Positions 6,247 to 30,697 of a stretch of DNA of 34,354 nucleotides are shown here, piece after piece. How positions within the stretch are numbered: the first letter of the stretch is position 1; every line of letters starts with the position of its first letter. The DNA lies in assembly GCA_947624045.1 (NCBI GenBank), contig CANQIL010000016.1, forward strand, positions 1 to 34,354. The letters are read 5' to 3'. The notes under the pieces were generated by a model, which worked only from the letters and a program-made list of their open reading frames with translations, had not been told where the DNA came from and ran no database searches. Position numbers and translations under genes: made by a program. Source of the DNA: an uncultured Bacilli bacterium (GTDB lineage: Bacteria > Bacillota_I > Bacilli_A > RF39 > UBA660).

Positions 6247-6252
6247 GTATTT

Positions 6253-6286
6253 AAAAGTGATGAAAGAAATTTTGTTGCTTTTTTTA
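6253..6286 (+). terminator. Intrinsic terminator after the CtpA gene
   Basis: Stem of 13 pairs (6253-6265 with 6270-6282, four of them G-U) closing a GAAA tetraloop, followed by a T-run. Confidence 0.6.
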
Positions 6287-6337
6287 TTTTGGACTAAATT
6301 ATTGTACAAATTGTATAAAATAAAAATTAAAAAGTTC

Positions 6338-6374
6338 TTGACAATACCCAATTGGGGGGGGGGTATGCTATAGT
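6338..6374 (+). promoter_or_regulatory. Poly-G spacer promoter of variable protein 1 (putatively phase-variable)
   Basis: Perfect -35 TTGACA (6338-6343). Ten consecutive G occupy 6354-6363. They are followed by overlapping -10 candidates: TATGCT (6364-6369, spacer 20) and the extended TGCTATAGT (TATAGT 6369-6374, spacer 25). The flanks ATACCCAATT...GTAT would form a 16-bp palindrome if the tract were only three G long, and the spacer to TATAGT would then be 18. Because G-tract length sets the -35/-10 distance, slipped-strand changes should alter promoter strength, as known for Neisseria porA. The same element lies before the paralogue at 27935. Confidence 0.8.
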
Positions 6375-6416
6375 TAGATAAAAATAGAAACAGTGGAAAA
6401 AAGGTGTTTAAAAATT

Positions 6417-9161
6417 ATGGAAAAGTTTAATAAACATATTCTAATTTTAATAGCAGTAATTGTAATTGGTATGAGTATAGGTTATTCTGCTCTAAATAGT
6501 GATTTAAAAATAAGTGGTGAAGTAAACTATCGTCCTCAAGAAGATGTAAGAATTACTAATTTTACGACTGATAATAAGCCTAATGAAATGACAATACAGT
6601 ATTCAGATTATTCTAAGTATGAAGTTAAGTTAGGCTATACAACTACTGGGGCTTATAGTATTACTTATACTGTAGAAGTATCAAACTTTTCAGGTGTGAA
6701 TATGGGTATTTTAGAAATAGGTGGCTTAGATAATAGCGTAGTAGTTCAAAGTGATATTATTGGTAAAAAATTAGTAGGACCTGCTAGTACTAAGACTTTT
6801 ACAATTACTTTTAATTCTACTGTAGCAGAAACAAAGACGTATTTATTAAGCTTTGATTTTGAACAAGTTTTTACAATTACTTATAATGGTTTTAGTAATA
6901 CTGATAATTATAAAAAAGAAATACTAGAGGGAGAAGATTATACCCAAAACTTTGGTAGTAATGCTCCAACAAAATTAGAAGTAAGAATGGGTGGAGTAGC
7001 TATTGAAAATTATACATACAGTAATGGTACTTTAACTATATTAAATGTAAATGGAAATATAGAAATTACTGCTCCTAAAGTTTGTGAATTTTCATCTTAT
7101 ACAGATAGTAGTGGCGCAAATGCACCAGTATTAAATGGTGATATGATACCGGTAGTATATAGCGAAAAATGTCAAAGTTGGATTAAACAAGATTTAGATA
7201 AAAGCTATGATTATTCCAAACAAGTATGGGCTAATGCTGTAACTGTAGTAGAAGATAGTATAAGAGAAAAATCCTTAGGAATGGAGGCTAAGGATTTACT
7301 TAATACAAATTTAGGTTATAAAAGTACAAATCAAGGAGTAAATGCCGAAGAAGATGATGATGGATACATAACAAATGAATCGATAAGTAATTTAACATTA
7401 ATCTTTAAGACAGGTGTAACAGGAGGAACATTATCTTTTGATTACTCAGTATCAAGTGAGGAAGAATATGATTATTTAACTATTAAAGTAAATGACAAAA
7501 CTATAGCAAGTGAAATATCTGGAGAATATAGTGGAAACTATAGTGAAGAATTAAGCCCAAATACAAAATATACAATAGTAGCTAATTATGAAAAAGATTC
7601 AAGTGGTGATGGAGGTAGTGATGATACTGCTACTATAAATAATTTAGTAGTACCCAATGATTTATCAGAATCATTGTCAGTAGTTTCAACAGGTGATTAT
7701 CAATGGACACAAAATTATAAATATTATATAAGTTCAAATTATGACCTTGATAAAATGACAGGAAATTTTTTATTAAAAAATATAGAGGGACATAATTTTA
7801 TTTCAAGTGATGTAGGAAAATATATGTGTGCAGATGGAGCACCAAAAACTTGCAAAGAATTATATAAAATAACAAAAGTAGAAAGTAATATTATAAAAGA
7901 AGTAGAAAAATTTACATCTGAGCAATTTAAAGCAAGAGAACTGTATATAAATGCACCTGTTGGAACGGAAATTCCAATGGAAGATATAAACACAATGTGG
8001 GTGTGGATTCCAAGATACTCATATACAATAAAGAGTGAAAATGGAATAGACTATTTTGGTAAAGCTAGTTTTGGAAATAGTGCTCCTACAAGAGAATTGC
8101 CAGGTGAAATAGATATAAAATTTATAAAAAATGAAACTGAAAAAGGAGCAGCTCAATATATAGGTGATAATACAAGCGGTTGGCGAACAAATGAGGCATT
8201 TAATTTTGGAGGAGTGAATCAAACAGGTATGTGGGTTTCCAAATTTGAGCCGACAGGAATCTCCCCAAAATGTACTAATATAAATTGCGATGTAAGTAGT
8301 GTAACAGTAAAGCCAGGTAAAGTTTCTATAAGAAGTGGTATAACAGTAAGTAATTTTTACTTTATGTCAAGAAGTATGCAATTAAATAATGCCAGTACTT
8401 ATGGATTTAATAAAGATAGTGGCGATTTGCATATGATGAAAAATGATGAGTGGGGAGCAGTAGCCTATCTTTCCCAAAGTAGATATGGCAAATATGGAAA
8501 TAGTGATTATACAGGTGCAAATAAAGAAGTATATATAAATAATGATGGTGGTTATATAACTGGTCATAGTGGAGGAAGTCCAAGTGCAAGTGGAAGTAGT
8601 TCGGAAACAAAATATGAATATAATGATATGACTAATTTAGGAGAAGGAAAAGGACAAGCCGGGCCTGGAGCTTCAACAACAGGAAATATATATGGAATAT
8701 ATGATATGTCAGGTGGAGCATATGAATATGTAATGGGTGTATTAGAATATGATGCTCAAGGAGAAGATGAGCATAGTGGACAAATTGTAACAGGATCATC
8801 AGGATTTAAAGGGTTAAGTAGTAGTGGAAATTCAACAGGAAGTTATGACTTACCAAATGAGAAATACTATAACAAATATAAAAGTGCCAAACCAACATCA
8901 TATAGGTTTCCAGATGCTAATTTTGACTCAGCTTGTAATGGAGAGGTATGTTATGGTCATGCTTTAAGTGAAACTTATGGAGCAAGTAGTGGAAATTATG
9001 GTTGGTATGGCGATTATGTCGACTTTGTCTACCGCAGTGATCCTTGGTTCAGACGCGGCGGCTACTGGGGCAATAGCACGAGCGCAGGAGTGTTCCACGA
9101 TCTCGCCGGCAATGGCGGTTCCAACATTTACAACTCTTGCCGTTTAACTCTCACGCCATAG
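6417..9161 (+). CDS. Variable secreted protein 1 with C-type-lectin/FGE-like C-terminus (putative DGR target)
   Basis: A 914-residue exported protein, paralogous to 28013-30697. The start is ATG 6417, because AGGTG (6402-6406) sits ten bases upstream; an upstream in-frame GTG at 6393 has no ribosome binding site. In order: a hydrophobic signal/anchor segment ending YSALNSDLKISGEV (SipW-type look); two beta-rich Ig-like regions to about residue 220; the block SGANAPVLNGDMIPVVYSEK; a Gly/Ser/Asp-rich beta domain differing from the paralogue; VWIPRYSY; then an FGE-sulfatase/C-type-lectin-like domain (HMMKNDEWGAVAYLSQSRYG, TGNIYGIYDMSGGAYEYVMG). It ends in a tip, WFRRGGYWGN...AGVF...SCRLTLTP, typical of DGR variable proteins. 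The last ~160 bases have markedly higher G+C. There is no cell-wall sorting signal, so any anchoring would be by the N-terminal segment. Expression is probably set by the poly-G promoter. Confidence 0.8.
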   Translation: MEKFNKHILILIAVIVIGMSIGYSALNSDLKISGEVNYRPQEDVRITNFTTDNKPNEMTIQYSDYSKYEVKLGYTTTGAYSITYTVEVSNFSGVNMGILEIGGLDNSVVVQSDIIGKKLVGPASTKTFTITFNSTVAETKTYLLSFDFEQVFTITYNGFSNTDNYKKEILEGEDYTQNFGSNAPTKLEVRMGGVAIENYTYSNGTLTILNVNGNIEITAPKVCEFSSYTDSSGANAPVLNGDMIPVVYSEKCQSWIKQDLDKSYDYSKQVWANAVTVVEDSIREKSLGMEAKDLLNTNLGYKSTNQGVNAEEDDDGYITNESISNLTLIFKTGVTGGTLSFDYSVSSEEEYDYLTIKVNDKTIASEISGEYSGNYSEELSPNTKYTIVANYEKDSSGDGGSDDTATINNLVVPNDLSESLSVVSTGDYQWTQNYKYYISSNYDLDKMTGNFLLKNIEGHNFISSDVGKYMCADGAPKTCKELYKITKVESNIIKEVEKFTSEQFKARELYINAPVGTEIPMEDINTMWVWIPRYSYTIKSENGIDYFGKASFGNSAPTRELPGEIDIKFIKNETEKGAAQYIGDNTSGWRTNEAFNFGGVNQTGMWVSKFEPTGISPKCTNINCDVSSVTVKPGKVSIRSGITVSNFYFMSRSMQLNNASTYGFNKDSGDLHMMKNDEWGAVAYLSQSRYGKYGNSDYTGANKEVYINNDGGYITGHSGGSPSASGSSSETKYEYNDMTNLGEGKGQAGPGASTTGNIYGIYDMSGGAYEYVMGVLEYDAQGEDEHSGQIVTGSSGFKGLSSSGNSTGSYDLPNEKYYNKYKSAKPTSYRFPDANFDSACNGEVCYGHALSETYGASSGNYGWYGDYVDFVYRSDPWFRRGGYWGNSTSAGVFHDLAGNGGSNIYNSCRLTLTP
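8999..9160 (+). other. Putative DGR variable region (VR) at the 3' end of variable protein 1
   Basis: Over 9001-9160 I count 86 G+C in 160 bases (about 54%), against roughly a third in the preceding part of the gene. Many codons here (TAT, TAC, GGC, GAT, GTC, GAC, CGC, AGT, CAC, GCC, GGT, ATT) differ from AAC or AAT only at the first two positions, as expected from adenine-directed mutagenic retrohoming of a template rich in Asn codons. The encoded frame RRGG...AGVF...SCRLTLTP matches the conserved scaffold of DGR lectin-fold targets, with variable residues between. No template repeat or reverse transcriptase was found in the window, so the assignment rests on composition and codon pattern. 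Confidence 0.6.
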
Positions 9162-9196
9162 AGCGTAAGCGATTTACTCTTTTGCTTTGTTCTGTA

Positions 9197-9229
9197 CTAA
9201 CTTCCTCTTTTTCCAGAGGTGGGTGTTAG
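9197..9229 (+). other. Hairpin just downstream of the putative variable region
   Basis: Two-part stem: CTAAC (9197-9201) pairs with GTTAG (9225-9229), and CCTCT (9204-9208) pairs with AGAGG (9215-9219), around a TTTTCC loop. No T-run follows, so it does not look like a terminator. A hairpin shortly after the variable region is a known feature of some DGR targets. Confidence 0.45.
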
Positions 9230-9319
9230 GGATTTATTCGTAAAAAGTTTTCTTGAGCTTGTCAAGACTAGTGTGTAAATTTTTTAATTATTTTGTTTTT
9301 AGAGCAAATATATGAATAA

Positions 9320-9357
9320 AAAAAGACTTAACAAATTTGTTTGCTTTAAGTCTTTTT
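9320..9357. terminator. Bidirectional terminator between variable protein 1 and the sortase gene
   Basis: Twelve-base arms AAAAAGACTTAA (9320-9331) and TTAAGTCTTTTT (9346-9357) give a stem flanked by A-run and T-run, so it works for both converging units. It overlaps the stop codon of the sortase gene. Confidence 0.85.
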
Positions 9358-9934
9358 ACTTTTCAATACAATTGATAACTAACTGCATATCATCTTTGGT
9401 TGGACTGCAAGTAGTTAAAATTAATTGCTTTTTATCTTCTTTTAAAACATTGATGTCACCATCTTTTTTTTCTTCCCAATAATTCTTAACCTTATAATAA
9501 TATTCTTTATCATTGTAAATTAACTTTACTTCATCATTAATAGCTAACTCGTCTAGATGTCTAAAATAGGCAGCTTTGCCAGAACCTGAATGAGCCGCTA
9601 TAAACATGATACTATTATCATTATCAGGAGTTATAGAATTATTTAAAATAGTAACATTTTTATCAACATTATTTAAAGTACTATTAATACTATATAGATT
9701 ATTATTAATATTTAGCTTATCAATAATTAATTTACCAACTATATTTTCTTGCTCAATTTCTATTTCTTTTTCCTTAAGACTAGCCTTTGAAGTATTCATA
9801 TGTATGATATTATCAAAAGATAAATTACTAAACATATGACTTGTAATTTTTTCAGTTCTATTTAGCTTTATAGTGGTTGCTAAAAAGAGAAGAGAAATAA
9901 CTAATATTAGTATTAAAAATAGTTTCTTTAACAT
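9356..9934 (-). CDS. Sortase (class D-like) dedicated to the adjacent adhesin
   Basis: Cysteine transpeptidase that would attach surface proteins to peptidoglycan. The 192-residue protein has an N-terminal membrane anchor (residues 4-21), a linker and a compact sortase domain. The catalytic His is H115 in AAHSG and the catalytic Cys is C176 in LTTCSP. The residue aligned with the usual catalytic Arg, eight after the Cys, is Q184 (DDMQLVI), which is unusual. Its ATG overlaps the stop of the adhesin gene by seven bases (ATGTTAA), implying translational coupling, and no separate ribosome binding site is evident. The pairing with a protein carrying a VPDT sorting signal suggests a one-substrate sortase. 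Confidence 0.85.
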   Translation of the reverse strand: MLKKLFLILILVISLLFLATTIKLNRTEKITSHMFSNLSFDNIIHMNTSKASLKEKEIEIEQENIVGKLIIDKLNINNNLYSINSTLNNVDKNVTILNNSITPDNDNSIMFIAAHSGSGKAAYFRHLDELAINDEVKLIYNDKEYYYKVKNYWEEKKDGDINVLKEDKKQLILTTCSPTKDDMQLVINCIEK

Positions 9935-11343
9935 AATATTTCAATTAAGAAAGAAATAAGAGCATCGAAAAAACTAGTTGATTTAGTATCAGGAACTTTT
10001 ATTTTATAATTTTTTAATTTGTAAGTAATAGTCTTTCCATCTTTTACTTCAAAAGAAATAGGCTCTACTTTTTCATACCCCTCAGTAGTATTAACTTGTT
10101 CTAAATAATATTTTCCATAGGGAAGAATTATTTCAGCATAGCCAAGTTCATTAGTAGTTAGAGTTTTTATTAATTCTTTTTTAGAATTATAAATATTAAA
10201 TTTAATATTAGCTTCAGGAGTAAAAGTAGAATCTTCACCATACTCTTTGTATATTACTAGTTTACTTTTTATAACTTCATTTTCTAACTTTATAGTTTGA
10301 AAACGACTGTTTCTATTAACTTTGAACATAATTAAATTTTTATTAACAGTATAACCTTTACCGGCTTTTGTTTCTCTTAAATAATATGTTCCATAATCAA
10401 TATTTTCGACATAAGCAGTATTGTTTTTTAGATTTAGAGTCATTATTTTTTCCTTATTAGCATTTAATAACTCATAGACTGCTCCATTTAGTTCGGCTTC
10501 ACCTGTTGTTTTAGTAGATTTAGTATCTTTATCTATCTTGTTAAAAGTTATTTTGTTAGAATCTACATAAATATAAATTTTAAAAAAAGTATAATCAAGA
10601 TTACCTGTTTCTAATAAGTCTTGACTATCAGCAGATTGAAAAAATACGACAGGAGTTCTATAGGTGTTATCTTTTCTATTAAAAGATATTTGATGATAGC
10701 CTTCATTTAAGTCAGTAATTGTTAGAGTATTATTAGATATTTTAGCATAATCAACTGGAGAAGAATATAAATCTAATAAATTATTAGTATCAGTAATAAC
10801 TAAGTCTTTTCCTTTTACTACTTCAAATGTTTGTTCATCGAATGAGGGTTTTAAATAGCTTTTTGCGACTAAAGCATTTAATTCATTAATTTCATCGGTA
10901 AAACGGTCTATTCTATTGCCATCTAGATAATCAGTAAAATAGAAATCATCGTTGGGGTTAGCTTCTTTCCATATTAATACTTGAGTGATCGCAATCCATT
11001 TTACGTCAGTATGATTAGCGTAGCCATAACCATAATGAGCTAGGGCAGAAATGTTTTTTCGTTGTGTTTCAGATAAATTTTCAGGGTAGTATGTGCTACT
11101 GTAAGAACTACTTGAGTTTATACCTATAAAAGGCTCAAGACAATAAGCAACATTGTTATTTCCTTTTTCTCTGTATACTTGGGCAGTTTGATAGTAGGTA
11201 GTGTTGGTAGAAGAGTCATGTCTTTTTAGATAAATGCCATCTAAAAATTCAGCACCGTAGAAATGGTAAGTCTTCGCATAAGCGAAATTTGGTAAGAAGA
11301 TGAAACTAGTTATTGTTATTAAGAAAAATAATACTTTTTTCAA
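9928..11343 (-). CDS. Thioester-domain/CnaB surface adhesin with VPDT sorting signal
   Basis: Cell-wall adhesin of 471 residues. I choose a TTG start at 11343 because AAGGAGGG lies 6 bases upstream and the protein then begins with a clean signal peptide ending PNFAYA; an in-frame ATG at 11385 would add a basic tail and overlap the promoter. A thioester domain follows: C68 in AYCLEPF and Q121 in TQVLIW are the expected Cys-Gln bond partners used for covalent host attachment. Two CnaB-type domains come next, with typical Lys-containing first strands (FNKIDKD, LVIYKEYG) and Glu-containing strands (YYLRETKAGKGY, YYLEQVNTTEGY), so internal isopeptide bonds are likely. The end is KVPDTKST plus a hydrophobic segment, a sorting signal of non-canonical VPDT type. 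It forms an operon with the sortase. Confidence 0.85.
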   Translation of the reverse strand: MKKVLFFLITITSFIFLPNFAYAKTYHFYGAEFLDGIYLKRHDSSTNTTYYQTAQVYREKGNNNVAYCLEPFIGINSSSSYSSTYYPENLSETQRKNISALAHYGYGYANHTDVKWIAITQVLIWKEANPNDDFYFTDYLDGNRIDRFTDEINELNALVAKSYLKPSFDEQTFEVVKGKDLVITDTNNLLDLYSSPVDYAKISNNTLTITDLNEGYHQISFNRKDNTYRTPVVFFQSADSQDLLETGNLDYTFFKIYIYVDSNKITFNKIDKDTKSTKTTGEAELNGAVYELLNANKEKIMTLNLKNNTAYVENIDYGTYYLRETKAGKGYTVNKNLIMFKVNRNSRFQTIKLENEVIKSKLVIYKEYGEDSTFTPEANIKFNIYNSKKELIKTLTTNELGYAEIILPYGKYYLEQVNTTEGYEKVEPISFEVKDGKTITYKLKNYKIKVPDTKSTSFFDALISFLIEILC

Positions 11344-11375
11344 AATATCCCTCCTTTTTTTTCTTAACGGAATTG

Positions 11376-11404
11376 ATAATAACATGATATTTTAATTGAC
11401 GCAA
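11376..11404 (-). promoter_or_regulatory. Promoter of the adhesin-sortase operon
   Basis: On the minus strand: TTGCGT (11404-11399), 17-base spacer, TATTAT (11381-11376), placed upstream of the ribosome binding site of the adhesin. Confidence 0.55.
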
Positions 11405-24265: not shown

Positions 24266-24643
24266 ATGGAAGAGGTTATATTATTTTTATTGAGCTTTGT
24301 TTTTATATTTTTGCTTTATCAAATAATTATAATTGGGCCAGCTAAGAGGAGTAAGTCTTTAAAGACGAGGGGCAAGAGGAAGGATAAAAATCCGATTGAA
24401 GTTAAGTATTTGATAAGTAAATATAAGCTTGATATGGAAAAGGTTAATTATAATCAATTGCTACAAATAGTGGCAATTACTTCTTCTTTCGATATTGCTT
24501 TAATTGGGAGTTTGATTATGGCAGTTGAGGATTTTTTTCTATCAGTAGTGGTAGGAATTGTTGCGATAGTAGTTTTGATAATGGGAAGTTATCACTTAGT
24601 ATATTTATTTTATAAAAAGAAAGGTATGGTAAAAAATGGTTAA
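24266..24643 (+). CDS. Small membrane protein cotranscribed with leuS
   Basis: A 125-residue protein beginning at ATG 24266 behind AGGAGGAG; an in-frame ATG at 24239 lies inside the T-box terminator and is not used. It has one N-terminal membrane segment (residues 3-23), a basic loop of about 45 residues (SKSLKTRGKRKDKNPIEVKY) and two C-terminal membrane segments (about 57-77 and 83-112). Its stop overlaps the start of leuS by eight bases. I cannot name it. Its position under leucine T-box control makes its expression follow tRNA-Leu charging. Confidence 0.75.
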   Translation: MEEVILFLLSFVFIFLLYQIIIIGPAKRSKSLKTRGKRKDKNPIEVKYLISKYKLDMEKVNYNQLLQIVAITSSFDIALIGSLIMAVEDFFLSVVVGIVAIVVLIMGSYHLVYLFYKKKGMVKNG

Positions 24644-27449
24644 TTTTAAAGAGATAGAAAAGAAGTGGCAAAAATATTGGGAAGATGAGAAGATTTTTGT
24701 TGCGGATAATAATAGTAGTAAGAAGCCTTATTATGTATTGGTTGAGTTTCCTTATCCAAGTGGAGCAGGGCTACATGTTGGGCATGTAAGAAGTTATACA
24801 GCACAGGATGCGGTGGCTAGAATGAAAAGAATGCAAGGGTATAATGTTTTATATCCAATGGGTTGGGATGCTTTTGGAGCACCTGCAGAACAGTATGCTA
24901 TTAAGAATCATATTCACCCTAAAGAAGCCGTTAAGGAAAACATTAAGACTTTTAAGGAGCAAATGAAATCATTAGGTTTTTCTTTTGACTGGACAAGAGA
25001 GTTTTCGACAACGGACCCTGAATATTATAAATGGACACAATGGCAATTTTTACAATTTTATAAGCATGGTATGGCTTATAAAGATACTATTCCAGTAAAT
25101 TGGTGCCCTAATTGTAAGAGTGTTCTTTCTAATGAAGATGCGGCTGGGGGAGTTTGTGAAAGATGTGGTAGTAAGGTTGTTCAAAAAGAAAAATCACAAT
25201 GGATGCTTAGAATGAGTGATTATGCCGAGGATTTATTAAAGGGCTTAGATGATACTAATTTTGCCGAGAGGGTTAAGTTAGGACAAATTAACTGGATAGG
25301 TAAGTCAATAGGAGCTCAAGTTGATTTTCAAGTTAAGGGATTTGATAAGAAGTTCACTGTATTTACAACAAGATGTGATACATTATTTGGGGCAACTTAC
25401 TGTGTACTAGCACCTGAACATAAAGACGTTTTGGAGATAACGGCACCTGAGAAGAAAGAAGAAGTTTTGAAGTATATTGAAGAGTGTTCTTGTAAAAATG
25501 AGATGGAAAGAACGGAGCTTAATAAGGAAAAGACAGGTGTTTTTATAGGGGCTTATGCTATAAATCCAGTTAATAATAAGGAAATACCTATTTATATATC
25601 TGACTATGTTTTAGCAAGCTATGGTACAGGAGCAATTATGGCAGTACCGGCTCACGATGAGAGAGATTATGAGTTTGCGAAAAAGTTTGATATTCCAATT
25701 ATTCAAGTTTTGGAAGAGGTAACAGGTATGCCTCACGAGAACGAGAGTGAAAAGAAGTCTATTGTAGCGGTAGTTTATGATAAGAGTAAGGATAAGTATT
25801 TGACAATTAATTGGGGTGAAGCCGGTGGTAGATTATTTGTAGGTGGAACAATAAAAGATGAGGAAAGTCCTGTTGAGTGTGCTTTGCGGGAGATAAGAGA
25901 AGAAACGGGCTATACGGATTTAGAGTTAGTTTGTGAAGACTTTAAGATTAATCATCATTATTACGCTTATAATAAGGATAAATATTTTAATATAGAAGCA
26001 ACACCACTTTTGTTTGAGTTAAAAAGTGATAAGCAAGTTGAGCAGAACTTAGATGATGATGAAAACTTTAGTGTTGAGTGGGTAGACAAAGATGTTGTTT
26101 TGAAAGAGATAAAAGATGAGTTACATAAAAAAGCTTATGAATATGTGATGAATCCTGGAGCCATGACAAAGGACGGTACACATACAAATTCGGATTTCTT
26201 GAATGGCTTAAATAAAGAAGAAGCTATTGAAAAGATGATTAGTTGGTTGGAAGAGAATAATCTTGGTAAAAAGCAAGTTAATTATAAAATGCGTGATTGG
26301 ATTTTTTCAAGACAGAGATTTTGGGGTGAGCCTATTCCAATTGTGTATTGTGAAAAATGTGGCTATGTACCAATGAAAGAGGAAGATTTGCCTTTGTTGT
26401 TGCCTGATGTTACGGAGTATGAGCCTACAGAAGATGGGGAAAGTCCACTTGCGAATATTGAAGAGTGGGTTAATACGACTTGTCCTTGTTGTGGTGGTAA
26501 GGCTAGAAGAGAAACGGATACGATGCCTAATTGGGCTGGGTCTAGTTGGTATTTCTTGAGATTTATGGACGCAAATAATGATAAGGAATTTGCTTCAATG
26601 GAGGCAATGAAGTATTGGAACAGAGTTGATTGGTACAATGGTGGTATGGAGCATACGGCTAGACATTTGTTATATGCAAGATTTTGGGTACAATTTTTGT
26701 ATAATATTGGCTTAGTTCCAAATAAGGAAATGATATGGACAAGAGTTAGTCACGGTATGGTACTTGGCTCTAATAATGAGAAGATGAGTAAGAGTAAGGG
26801 TAATGTAATAAATCCTGATGATATCGTTAAGGAGTATGGAGCAGATACTTTGAGGGTCTATGAGATGTTTATGGGTGATTATCAAATGGATGCTCCGTGG
26901 AGTACTGATTCTTTAAGAGGTTGCAAAAGATTTATCGATAAGGTAGTTAGGCTATTTGATAAGGTAAATGATAAAGAGGGATTTACTGAGTCTTTAGAGA
27001 TGATTCAAAATAAGAGTATTAAGAAAGTAACGGAGGATTTGACAACGCTTGGTTATAATACGGCTATTTCTACTTTGATGATTTTGGCTAATGCTTATGA
27101 TGATTTGGATAGTATAACTAAAGAAGATTATCGTCTACTTTTGGTACTACTTAACCCTATTGCGCCACATATTACTGAGGAGATGAATGAGAAGTTAGGT
27201 TATGAGCCTATTTGTTTAGGAAAGTTCCCAGTTTGTGATGAGAGTAAGATAATTGAGGAAGAAAAGGAAATTGCTGTTCAAGTAAATGGTAAGGTAAGAG
27301 CAACTATTAAGATTAAGGTTGATGAAGATGAGGAGTCTATTAAGAAAAAGGCGCTAAGTGAGGAAAATGTTATTAGACATATTGATTCTAAAGAGGTAGT
27401 AAAAATTATTGTTATTAAGGATAGAATTGTTAATATTGTCGTAAGATAG
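24636..27449 (+). CDS. leuS: Leucyl-tRNA synthetase with an inserted NUDIX domain
   Basis: Charges tRNA-Leu with leucine. Class I core: HVGH at residues 47-50 and KMSKS at 716-720, plus zinc-knuckle cysteines (CPNCKSVLSNEDAAGGVCERC) and a second cluster (YCEKCG, CPCCGGK). The CP1 editing domain shows TTRCDTLFGATYCVLAPEH and AVPAHDERDYEFAKKFDIPI. Directly after that, about residues 365-507 form an extra domain with a complete Nudix box, G404-Y426 (G-x5-E-x7-REIREETGY; R418, E419, E422, E423). The reading frame then returns to normal LeuRS sequence (THTNSDFLNGLNKEEAIEKM). This explains the length of 937 instead of the usual ~805. It overlaps the small membrane protein gene and is under the T-box. 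The insertion is in frame, with intact motifs on both sides, so it looks functional. Confidence 0.95.
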   Translation: MVNFKEIEKKWQKYWEDEKIFVADNNSSKKPYYVLVEFPYPSGAGLHVGHVRSYTAQDAVARMKRMQGYNVLYPMGWDAFGAPAEQYAIKNHIHPKEAVKENIKTFKEQMKSLGFSFDWTREFSTTDPEYYKWTQWQFLQFYKHGMAYKDTIPVNWCPNCKSVLSNEDAAGGVCERCGSKVVQKEKSQWMLRMSDYAEDLLKGLDDTNFAERVKLGQINWIGKSIGAQVDFQVKGFDKKFTVFTTRCDTLFGATYCVLAPEHKDVLEITAPEKKEEVLKYIEECSCKNEMERTELNKEKTGVFIGAYAINPVNNKEIPIYISDYVLASYGTGAIMAVPAHDERDYEFAKKFDIPIIQVLEEVTGMPHENESEKKSIVAVVYDKSKDKYLTINWGEAGGRLFVGGTIKDEESPVECALREIREETGYTDLELVCEDFKINHHYYAYNKDKYFNIEATPLLFELKSDKQVEQNLDDDENFSVEWVDKDVVLKEIKDELHKKAYEYVMNPGAMTKDGTHTNSDFLNGLNKEEAIEKMISWLEENNLGKKQVNYKMRDWIFSRQRFWGEPIPIVYCEKCGYVPMKEEDLPLLLPDVTEYEPTEDGESPLANIEEWVNTTCPCCGGKARRETDTMPNWAGSSWYFLRFMDANNDKEFASMEAMKYWNRVDWYNGGMEHTARHLLYARFWVQFLYNIGLVPNKEMIWTRVSHGMVLGSNNEKMSKSKGNVINPDDIVKEYGADTLRVYEMFMGDYQMDAPWSTDSLRGCKRFIDKVVRLFDKVNDKEGFTESLEMIQNKSIKKVTEDLTTLGYNTAISTLMILANAYDDLDSITKEDYRLLLVLLNPIAPHITEEMNEKLGYEPICLGKFPVCDESKIIEEEKEIAVQVNGKVRATIKIKVDEDEESIKKKALSEENVIRHIDSKEVVKIIVIKDRIVNIVVR

Positions 27450-27934: not shown

Positions 27935-27970
27935 TTGACAATACCCAATGGGGGGGGGGTATGCTATAGT
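27935..27970 (+). promoter_or_regulatory. Poly-G spacer promoter of variable protein 2 (putatively phase-variable)
   Basis: TTGACA (27935-27940), then ATACCCAAT, ten G (27950-27959), then TATGCT (27960-27965, spacer 19) overlapping TGCTATAGT (TATAGT 27965-27970, spacer 24). It is the same element as at 6338 but one base shorter: one T is missing before the tract, so the two copies have different spacings (20 against 19) with the same number of G. Confidence 0.8.
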
Positions 27971-28012: not shown

Positions 28013-30697
28013 ATGGAAAAGTATAATAAATATATCTTAATCTTAATAGCCGTAATTGTAATTGGTATGAGTATAGGCTATTCTGCCTTAAATAGTAATT
28101 TAAAAATAAGTGGTGAAGTAAATTATAGGCCCCAAGAAGATGTAAGAATAACTAATTTTACGACTGATAATAAACCTAATGAAATGACAATACAGTATTC
28201 TGATTATTCAAAATATGAAGTTAAATTAGGTTATACAACTAGTGGGGCTTGTAATATTACTTATACTGTAGAAGTATCAAACTTTTCAGGTGTAAATATA
28301 GGTATTTTAGAAATAGGTGGCTTAGATAATAACGTAATAGTTCAAAGTGATATTATTGGTAAAAAATTAGTAGGTCCTGCAGATACTCAGACATTTACTA
28401 TTACATTTAATTCTACTATAGCAGAAACAAAAACTTATTTATTAACTTTTGATTTTGAACAAGTATTTACAATTACTTATAATGGTTTTAGTAATACTGA
28501 AAATTATAAAAAAGAAATATTAGAGGGAGAAGATTATACTCAAAACTTTGGTAGTAATGCCCCAACAAAATTAGAAATAACAATGGGTGGAGTAGCTATA
28601 GAAAATTATACTTATAGTAATGGTACTTTAACTATATTAAATGTAAATGGAAATATAGAAATTAATGTTCCTAATGCCTGTGAATTTCCATCTTATACTG
28701 ATAGTAGTGGAGCAAATGCACCAATTTTAAATGGAGATATGATACCAGTAGTATATAGTGAAAAATGTCAAAGTTGGATAAAACAAGATTTAAATAAAAG
28801 TTATGATTATTCAAAACAAATATGGGCTAATGCCGTAACAGTAGTAGAAGATAGTAAAAGGGAAAAGTCGTTAGGTTTAGAAGCTAAAAATTTAATTAAT
28901 ATTAGTTCAATAGCTTATAAAAGTACAAATCAAGGTCAAGATAGAACAACAAGTAATTTAACATTAACATTTAAAACAGGAGCTACAGGAGGAACATTAT
29001 TATTTTATTATTCAGTTTCAAGTGTTGATGGTTATTTATGCATTGATATAAACGGTAATACGATAGTTGAGGATTTGTCAGGAGAATATAATGGAAGTTA
29101 TAATAAAGAATTAAGCCCAAACACAAAATATACAATTAAAGTTGACTATTATGAATATGCAAGTAATGAGGGTGATGGAACAGCTTACATAAGTAATTTA
29201 GTAGTACCAAATGATTTAGCGGAACCTTTAACAGTAGTTTCAACAGGAAAATATCCATGGACTCAATATGAGGTCCCTAATTCAAGATATGTATTATTTT
29301 TGGACTATGAATTGGATATAGACAAAGAAATATTTGCATTGAAAGGTGTAGAAAGACATAGCTTTAGTTCAAGTGATGTAGGAAAGTATATGTGTACTGA
29401 TGGAGTGTCAGCAACTTGTAGTGAATTATACAAAATAACAAAAGTAGAAGATAATATTATAAAAGAAGTAGAAAAATATACAATTGAGCAATTTAAAGCT
29501 AGAGAAAACTATGTAAATGCGCCTGTTGGAACGGAAATTCCGATGAGTTATATAAATACAATGTGGGTATGGATACCAAGATATTCCTATACAATAAAAA
29601 GTGAAGATGAAGGTAACTATTTTGGTAAGGCAAGTCTTGGAAATGATAGTCCAACTAAAAAATTACCAGGAGAAATAGATGTAAAATTTATAAAAAATGA
29701 AACAGATAAAGGAATTGCTCAATATATGGGAGATAATGTGAACGGTTGGCGGACAAATGAAGCTTTCAATTTTGGAGGAGAAAAGAAAACAGGCATGTGG
29801 GTTGGAAAATTTGAAACTTCAGGAAGATTAAAAAGAACTTGTGTTGACGAAACGTGTGATGTTAGTAACGTTACAATAAAGCCAAGTGTTACTTCATTAA
29901 GTACTCAATTGGTAAGTAGTTTTTTCTTTATGTCCAGAAGTATGCAAGTCAGTTATGCAGATACTTATGGATTTAATAAAAATAGTGGAGATTTACACAT
30001 GATGAAAAATGATGAGTGGGGAGCAGTAGCTTATCTTTCCCAAAGTAAATATGGAAAATACGGAAATACTGATTATATTGGAGAAAATAAAGAGATTTAT
30101 ATAAGCAATTCTTTTAGAAAAACAGGAAATAGCGGAGGAAGTCCAAATGCAAGTGAAGATGATGAAGATTATGAGTATAATGATATGACTAATTTAGGAA
30201 CAGGAAAAGGCCAAGCTGGCCCTGGAGCTTCTACTACGGGAAACATTTATGGAATATATGATATGTCAGGTGGAAACTATGAATATGTAATGGGCGTATT
30301 AGAATATGATGCTCAAGGAGTGGATACTCATAATGGACAAATTGCAACAGGTGGCTCAGAATTTAAAGGATTGGATTATTATGGAAGTGCAACAGGAAGT
30401 TATGACCTGCCAAATGAAAAATATTATAATAAATACAAAAGTGCTAGTCCAACATCTCATGATTTTACAACTGCAAAACCGGAATTAGCTTGTAATGGAG
30501 AAGTATGTTATGGACATGCTTTATCAGAAACTTCAAGTTGGTATAGTGATGGTGCTAATTTTATCTCCTATGATTATCCATGGCTTCTACGTGGTAACTA
30601 CTATATGGACACTACTATTGCAGGAATATTTTCTATTTATGATTATATGGGTGATAGTACTGATGAGAATTCTTGTCGTCTTACCTTTACTCCATAA
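28013..30697 (+). CDS. Variable secreted protein 2, paralogue of variable protein 1
   Basis: An 894-residue exported protein. ATG 28013 is chosen as in the paralogue (AGGTG ten bases upstream). The first ~230 residues are nearly identical to variable protein 1 (signal/anchor, Ig-like regions, block SGANAPILNGDMIPVVYSEK); the middle beta domain (about residues 290-410) is shorter and diverged; the C-terminal FGE/C-type-lectin-like part is again similar (HMMKNDEWGAVAYLSQSKYG, TGNIYGIYDMSGGNYEYVMG). The tip reads WLLRGNYYMDTTIAGIF...NSCRLTFTP, aligned with the paralogue's RRGGYWGN...AGVF...SCRLTLTP but with most intervening residues different and in AT-rich codons. Its leader has the same poly-G promoter, plus an adjacent XRE gene and palindrome. 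There is no cell-wall sorting signal. Confidence 0.8.
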   Translation: MEKYNKYILILIAVIVIGMSIGYSALNSNLKISGEVNYRPQEDVRITNFTTDNKPNEMTIQYSDYSKYEVKLGYTTSGACNITYTVEVSNFSGVNIGILEIGGLDNNVIVQSDIIGKKLVGPADTQTFTITFNSTIAETKTYLLTFDFEQVFTITYNGFSNTENYKKEILEGEDYTQNFGSNAPTKLEITMGGVAIENYTYSNGTLTILNVNGNIEINVPNACEFPSYTDSSGANAPILNGDMIPVVYSEKCQSWIKQDLNKSYDYSKQIWANAVTVVEDSKREKSLGLEAKNLINISSIAYKSTNQGQDRTTSNLTLTFKTGATGGTLLFYYSVSSVDGYLCIDINGNTIVEDLSGEYNGSYNKELSPNTKYTIKVDYYEYASNEGDGTAYISNLVVPNDLAEPLTVVSTGKYPWTQYEVPNSRYVLFLDYELDIDKEIFALKGVERHSFSSSDVGKYMCTDGVSATCSELYKITKVEDNIIKEVEKYTIEQFKARENYVNAPVGTEIPMSYINTMWVWIPRYSYTIKSEDEGNYFGKASLGNDSPTKKLPGEIDVKFIKNETDKGIAQYMGDNVNGWRTNEAFNFGGEKKTGMWVGKFETSGRLKRTCVDETCDVSNVTIKPSVTSLSTQLVSSFFFMSRSMQVSYADTYGFNKNSGDLHMMKNDEWGAVAYLSQSKYGKYGNTDYIGENKEIYISNSFRKTGNSGGSPNASEDDEDYEYNDMTNLGTGKGQAGPGASTTGNIYGIYDMSGGNYEYVMGVLEYDAQGVDTHNGQIATGGSEFKGLDYYGSATGSYDLPNEKYYNKYKSASPTSHDFTTAKPELACNGEVCYGHALSETSSWYSDGANFISYDYPWLLRGNYYMDTTIAGIFSIYDYMGDSTDENSCRLTFTP
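30534..30694 (+). other. Variable tip of variable protein 2 (possible older or differently sourced VR)
   Basis: Aligned with the GC-rich tip of variable protein 1, this stretch keeps the scaffold residues (WYSDG, RG, AG(I)F, SCRLT(F)TP) and has many AAY-derivable codons (TAT, AGT, GAT, GGT, GCT, ATC, TCC), but its composition matches the host. Shared scaffold residues use different synonymous codons from copy 1, so the two tips do not come from one recent template. Confidence 0.4.

Follow-up and report, generated by a model that had tools for sequence, protein, structure and literature searches.

The window, which is the whole stretch of DNA analysed here (34,354 nucleotides), is contig 16 of an assembly of 1.65 Mb in 83 contigs. 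It contains two related loci in which a promoter with a run of ten G precedes a gene for a variable surface protein:

6247..9310, plus strand: cassette of promoter and gene, located between the S41 protease and sortase genes, where sister species lack it
6338..6343, plus strand: -35 hexamer TTGACA of promoter 1, common to all 32 main-type promoters of the genome
6344..6353, plus strand: fixed part of the spacer, ATACCCAATT, 10 bases (9 bases in 30 of the 32 copies)
6354..6363, plus strand: G10 tract, the putative slippage-prone part of the spacer
6364..6369, plus strand: -10 hexamer TATGCT at a spacing of 20, picked via relatives that keep TATAAT right after the tract
6369..6374, plus strand: alternative -10 hexamer TATAGT, overlapping TATGCT, at a spacing of 25, not conserved in relatives
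6375..6416, plus strand: conserved leader, with the ribosome-binding site AAAGGTG at 6400-6406
6417..9161, plus strand: variable surface protein 1, likely start ATG 6417 (mechanical ORF: GTG 6393)
27935..27940, plus strand: -35 hexamer TTGACA of the second locus
27950..27959, plus strand: G10 tract of the second locus
27960..27965, plus strand: -10 hexamer TATGCT of the second locus, at a spacing of 19
28013..30697, plus strand: variable surface protein 2, with 75% identity to protein 1 and a C-terminus like a retroelement variable region; likely start ATG 28013

The two overlapping -10 hexamers of promoter 1 are both contained in TATGCTATAGT (6364-6374), directly 3' of the tract. All parts named in the original prediction (TTGACA, G10 and the overlapping -10 hexamers, at 6338-6374) are present, and the spacings that it gave, 20 to TATGCT and 25 to TATAGT, are correct; its wording, however, omitted the ten bases of ATACCCAATT that separate TTGACA from the tract. 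Such long G runs exceed chance expectation both in the window and genome-wide. In the window, G7 has 8 overlapping matches, corresponding to the two G10 tracts, against 0.55 expected, and none of 100 shuffles reaches this count. Runs of one to five G number 4173, 863, 134, 41 and 9, respectively, and the next are the two G10 runs with none in between; extrapolation of the run-length decay gives an expectation of 0.004 G10 runs for the window. The twin promoter at 27935-27970 has a fixed spacer part that is one base shorter than that of promoter 1.

Protein 1 has an N-terminal membrane anchor, in line with the earlier assignment of the controlled gene to a surface protein; no Pfam or NCBIfam model matches either variable protein of the window. 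In two sister species (G006 and G003), little DNA lies between the S41 protease gene and the sortase gene convergent with it; the window has about 3 kb there, including the promoter and gene 1. These two therefore seem to have entered the site as a unit. None of seven sister species has a tract after the S41 gene. Beside the cassette, on the minus strand (9356-11385), a sortase gene adjoins the gene for a protein with SpaA and thioester domains. Elsewhere in the window, a leucyl-tRNA synthetase (24636-27449) contains a match to the NUDIX domain at residues 397-501.

Tract promoters and their genes across the genome

The assembly contains 36 runs of seven or more G, every one of them 9 to 11 long, although only about 0.4 runs of nine or more would be expected per genome under independent bases. 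These runs comprise 32 promoters of the main type, two promoters of a second spacer type and two intragenic tracts. The main type consists of TTGACA, 9-10 bases, G9-11, TATGMT, a conserved leader with a ribosome-binding site and the start codon; 28 of its tracts are G10, three are G9 and one is G11. A homopolymer of about nine or more is thus present between a recognisable -35 and -10 in these promoters, and in all 34 the G run reads along the direction of the gene that follows. Both copies of the second type (L054, on C69) have the tract close to the -35 hexamer (TTGACT-TA-G10-..-TATAAT). One further copy of the main-type promoter (L284, on C10) has a broken tract, GGGGGTGGGG, with a total length that is still ten, and is perhaps a locked version. 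The two intragenic tracts, both on C35, L048:1502-1511 (G10) and L049:1502-1510 (G9), are located inside genes that, in our reading of the translations, appear to encode acyltransferase-like proteins; they are out of frame as assembled and are likely to represent translational phase variation.

Each of the 34 promoter tracts is followed by a gene whose product has a hydrophobic N-terminal anchor, and nearly all the tract-controlled genes belong to one paralogous set. With protein 1 as the query, 123 matches were found, about 60 of which (our own count) include the shared C-terminal part. For other genomes and named loci, among the matches listed, a hydrophobic N-terminus is encoded by the first open reading frame after the tract in 152 of 179 cases, compared with 153 of 592 control frames from these same loci. 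In a few examples, Pfam domains were identified in the tract genes, namely BspA-type leucine-rich repeats, Listeria-Bacteroides repeats and bacterial Ig-like domains.

About twenty paralogues in which the G tract is absent or interrupted were also read. Those with a clear TTGAC[AT] promoter mostly have a spacing of 17 bp, and further tract-less paralogues have a separate conserved block instead. Within the group L285-L302, palindromes span the 17-bp spacer of several members, which also seem to have a divergently oriented gene upstream, as though each one had its own regulator. Given that tract promoters, palindrome or 17-bp promoters and others all occur in one family, there are at least two styles of control.

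Conservation in relatives and the choice of the -10 hexamer

The pattern TTGACA-N3..11-H-G8 is present in 52 of the 243 genomes of the family and in 39 of its 148 genera, with up to 45 occurrences per genome, against two matches to the reversed control pattern in the same survey. In a sample of the order, which comprised only the same family, 31 of 146 gave matches; in other families of the class, matches are sparse, mostly one to six per genome. A scan of GTDB species genomes yielded at least 119 stretches with the pattern, many of them from samples labelled as gut and, among the matches listed, derived from Bacilli, Clostridia, Saccharibacteria, Selenomonadaceae, Spirochaetaceae, Streptobacillus, Helicobacter, Streptococcus and others. 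Judging from its relatives, the window organism is probably gut-dwelling. IMG/VR, scanned for further copies of the promoter of the window species, contained none. In three of the relatives (G117, G141 and G175; L077-L102), many contigs stop about 100 bases or less from a tract, as if the assembly were broken by repeats or by mixed tract lengths. On the coding strand, every spacer tract is a run of G, and the C-run version was found in none of 58 family genomes; slippage alone is no explanation for this strand preference.

Which of the two hexamers serves as the -10 is best judged from these relatives. By hexamer alone, TATAGT outscores TATGCT in the window genome and carries a TG extension, and transcription could start from this overlapping extended -10 (TGCTATAGT) without the tract, which would then be a passenger with the spacing irrelevant. 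In sister species and other genera, however, neither the fixed part of the spacer nor the leader is related to that of the window, and only the -35 hexamer, the tract and the -10 hexamer that abuts it are conserved. The N parts of the family genomes with TTGACA-N-G(8-21)-TATAAT are also unrelated to one another, and TATAAT is located directly 3' of the tract, for example, in G001, G141, G175 and G251. Because the relatives keep a good -10 abutting the tract, TATGCT was taken as the -10, which gives spacings of 20 for promoter 1 and 19 for its twin, and TATAGT was rejected in spite of its higher score. Furthermore, one promoter (L040) has TATGATAGGCT, without the second hexamer, and the total spacing clusters at 18-20 despite the variable fixed part. 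Initiation from the extended -10 is, in our estimate, very improbable.

The unrelated fixed parts in relatives also bear on the interpretation of the tract as one arm of an operator, a near-palindrome (ATACCC-AATT-GGG..GGTAT) that would be the site of a CsoR/RcnR-type repressor. ATACCC indeed faces GGGTAT at both loci of the window, but the ACCC arm is present in only 17 of the 32 copies in the genome, the others having GACAAGCTC, TGACGGTAT and other sequences. With the palindrome not conserved among the copies, this candidate was rejected, and we regard such an operator as extremely improbable.

Spacing and the proposed switch

Spacing was compared among promoters with exact TTGACA and TATAAT hexamers in which G8 abuts TATAAT, taken from the matches listed in the GTDB scan (103 genomes), the pattern of which let in spacings of 15 to 20 equally. 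Among these matches, the tract promoters show two humps, at 15-16 and 18-20, with a dip at 17 (14 promoters at 15, 22 at 16, 8 at 17, 32 at 18, 38 at 19 and 12 at 20), whereas tract-less exact promoters at the same loci are centred on 17 (6 at 16, 15 at 17, 5 at 18 and one each at 19 and 20). The share of 17-bp spacings among the matches listed is 8/126 with a tract versus 15/28 without (Fisher p=3.5e-8); in the set of relatives, in which spacing was unconstrained, 17 occurs in 1 of 76. The two humps may partly reflect lineage. In many genera, the mode is 19 while the fixed part ranges from 5 to 11 bases. Assembled tract alleles at 18-20 (or 15-16) are one to three bases off 17; thus, the consensus tracts are slightly too long or slightly too short for the best spacing. 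Since 17 bp is avoided by tract promoters, the majority of the assembled alleles look to be OFF or weak, as far as sequence can indicate.

Tract length varies between promoters with closely similar flanks. L029 (G11) and L055 (G10) share 115 identical flank bases, L128 (G10) and L134 (G12) have a single flank difference, and in the relative G175 one flank type is associated with tracts from G8 to G21. All these are paralogous promoters rather than alleles of one locus, each species being represented by one consensus assembly, and long G runs may be misjudged by short-read assemblies.

Such variation is relevant to the possibility that the tract is a fixed structural element, in which stacked G-rich DNA alters the length or twist of the spacer, 19 bp is an always-on spacing and selection holds the length. 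This would agree with the strong mode at 19 across many genera, with the invariable presence of G rather than C on the coding strand and with the 28 G10 tracts among the 32 in the window genome, a distribution that is tighter than free drift might suggest and counts against switching, although Neisseria tracts show a similarly strong mode, at 9-10 (PMC5953494). Nevertheless, lengths from 8 to 21 are found within single genomes with flanks alike; the spacings form two humps around 17 (among the matches listed), where a shifted optimum should give one; and Treponema pallidum tp0126, which has a tract, works best at 17 (PMC7864442). A fixed element therefore appears unlikely.

The phase-variable promoter of the original prediction agrees with the geometry of the promoters, with their paralogues and relatives and with the spacing control, and it is highly probable that the tracts constitute a spacer-length switch on surface-protein genes. 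The G10 tract would be the slippage-prone part of the spacer of a sigma-70-type promoter; strand slippage during replication would add or remove G and shift TATGCT relative to TTGACA, so that the promoter would fire well at 17-18 bp and be weak or off at 19-20 bp, as assembled. Each of the 32 paralogous surface-protein genes would have its own switch, so the cells of a population would differ in the members of the repertoire that they display. We infer slippage in the population, the ON state at 17-18, the start of transcription and a role in interaction with hosts or phages. The original prediction even understates the case because the promoter is one of 32 of its kind and the protein is, in addition, an apparent target of a diversity-generating retroelement (DGR).

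A diversity-generating retroelement and comparison with known systems

The components of the putative retroelement system are located in the window and on contig 1 (C1):

9020..9161, plus strand: DGR-type variable region (VR) of gene 1, differing from the template C1:106603-106737 mostly at A
C1:106343-106512: VR of contig 1, in a target gene with its own G10 promoter
C1:106603-106737: DGR template repeat
C1:107674-108234: reverse transcriptase, with RVT_1 over the cut-off

The 3' end of gene 1 is G+C-rich. Compared with the template, 24 of 50 A are changed in the window VR versus 21 of 108 other bases (p=0.0003); for the neighbouring VR on contig 1 and the same template, the counts are 26 of 50 at A versus 9 of 108 elsewhere. 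The region C1:106343-108234 (L310, L314, L304) shows the standard DGR order, with the VR in a G10-promoter gene followed by the template repeat, Avd (PF22296 bAvd above the Pfam cut-off) and reverse transcriptase. A second template/VR pair (C1:48982-49397) is located at the end of another G10-promoter gene. Further reverse transcriptase genes occur on two other contigs, C29 and C62, and C22 has a broken one. The window VR is far from any template or reverse transcriptase, with template, Avd and reverse transcriptase elsewhere in the genome, and gene 1 would be diversified in trans. Several tract-controlled proteins, including protein 1, look to end in a DGR variable region. With regard to a C-type lectin or FGE-like fold, as expected of a DGR target, the predicted structure of the C-terminal domain is a poor model (pLDDT 28.6), a profile search of PDB sequences found nothing, and in one relative there is a near-threshold FGE-sulfatase match.

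The C-terminal region of several proteins would thus be of the kind that the DGRs of this genome rewrite. With slightly better than even confidence, we propose a two-layer system: dozens of poly-G promoters, one to three G off the working length, would let rare cells show single members of the repertoire, and DGRs would rewrite the binding end of the same proteins; a resting length off the optimum would mark such promoters generally in host-associated bacteria and could be recognised from assemblies alone. Such coupling, if true, places two sources of diversity on one surface, namely which gene is shown and the form of its tip. Most known cases of spacer-length phase variation concern a few pathogen genes, whereas here it would be the standard promoter of a large surface-protein family; the switch recurs across an uncultured Bacilli family and, at lower density, in records of Clostridia, Saccharibacteria, Spirochaetaceae and others. 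Avoidance of 17 bp provides a simple test of phase state that is usable on existing assemblies.

The mechanism is already known from porA, tp0126 and vlp. In porA of Neisseria meningitidis, a precedent already invoked by the original prediction, the poly-G lies between -35 and -10, and the spacing controls transcription (PMC7864442). In T. pallidum, tp0126 likewise carries poly-G in the -35/-10 spacer and performs best when the total is 17 nt, and tprL reporters are active with G8 but close to background with G10; in vivo, the tprL tract is 7-11 long, most often 9, and its length alone does not fully predict expression (PMC7864442). Neisseria poly-G tracts are strongly modal at 9-10 (PMC5953494), the G10/G11 pilus tracts of Bifidobacterium breve slip in vivo in the gut (PMC9187656), and in Mycoplasma hyorhinis the vlp surface lipoprotein genes are switched independently, each by its own promoter poly-A (PMC10502178). 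A literature search, in which subscription journals were thinly covered, found neither this number of tracts nor clade-wide use nor pairing with DGRs; the scale, the use throughout a clade and the link to DGR-type proteins seem, provisionally, to be new.

The system resembles tp0126 and tprE/G/J/L in combining a promoter poly-G with surface proteins (PMC7864442), but T. pallidum is a spirochaete with a handful of outer-membrane protein genes, whereas here 32 near-identical promoters serve one paralogous family in a bacterium of the Bacilli class. Unlike porA, a single porin gene, the window genome has a multigene battery and a DGR. The vlp genes, too, form a family with a homopolymer in each promoter (PMC10502178), but with poly-A, far fewer genes and no retroelement. 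B. breve, a gut commensal, has tracts in the same G10/G11 range, but its switching is intragenic and translational, and promoter-spacer tracts are merely mentioned there (PMC9187656). Finally, the VR, template repeat, Avd, reverse transcriptase and A-biased differences are those of DGRs of the BPP-1 Mtd and Treponema TvpA type, from which the present system differs in that its targets are located behind poly-G promoters and the target in the window is distant from the template and reverse transcriptase.
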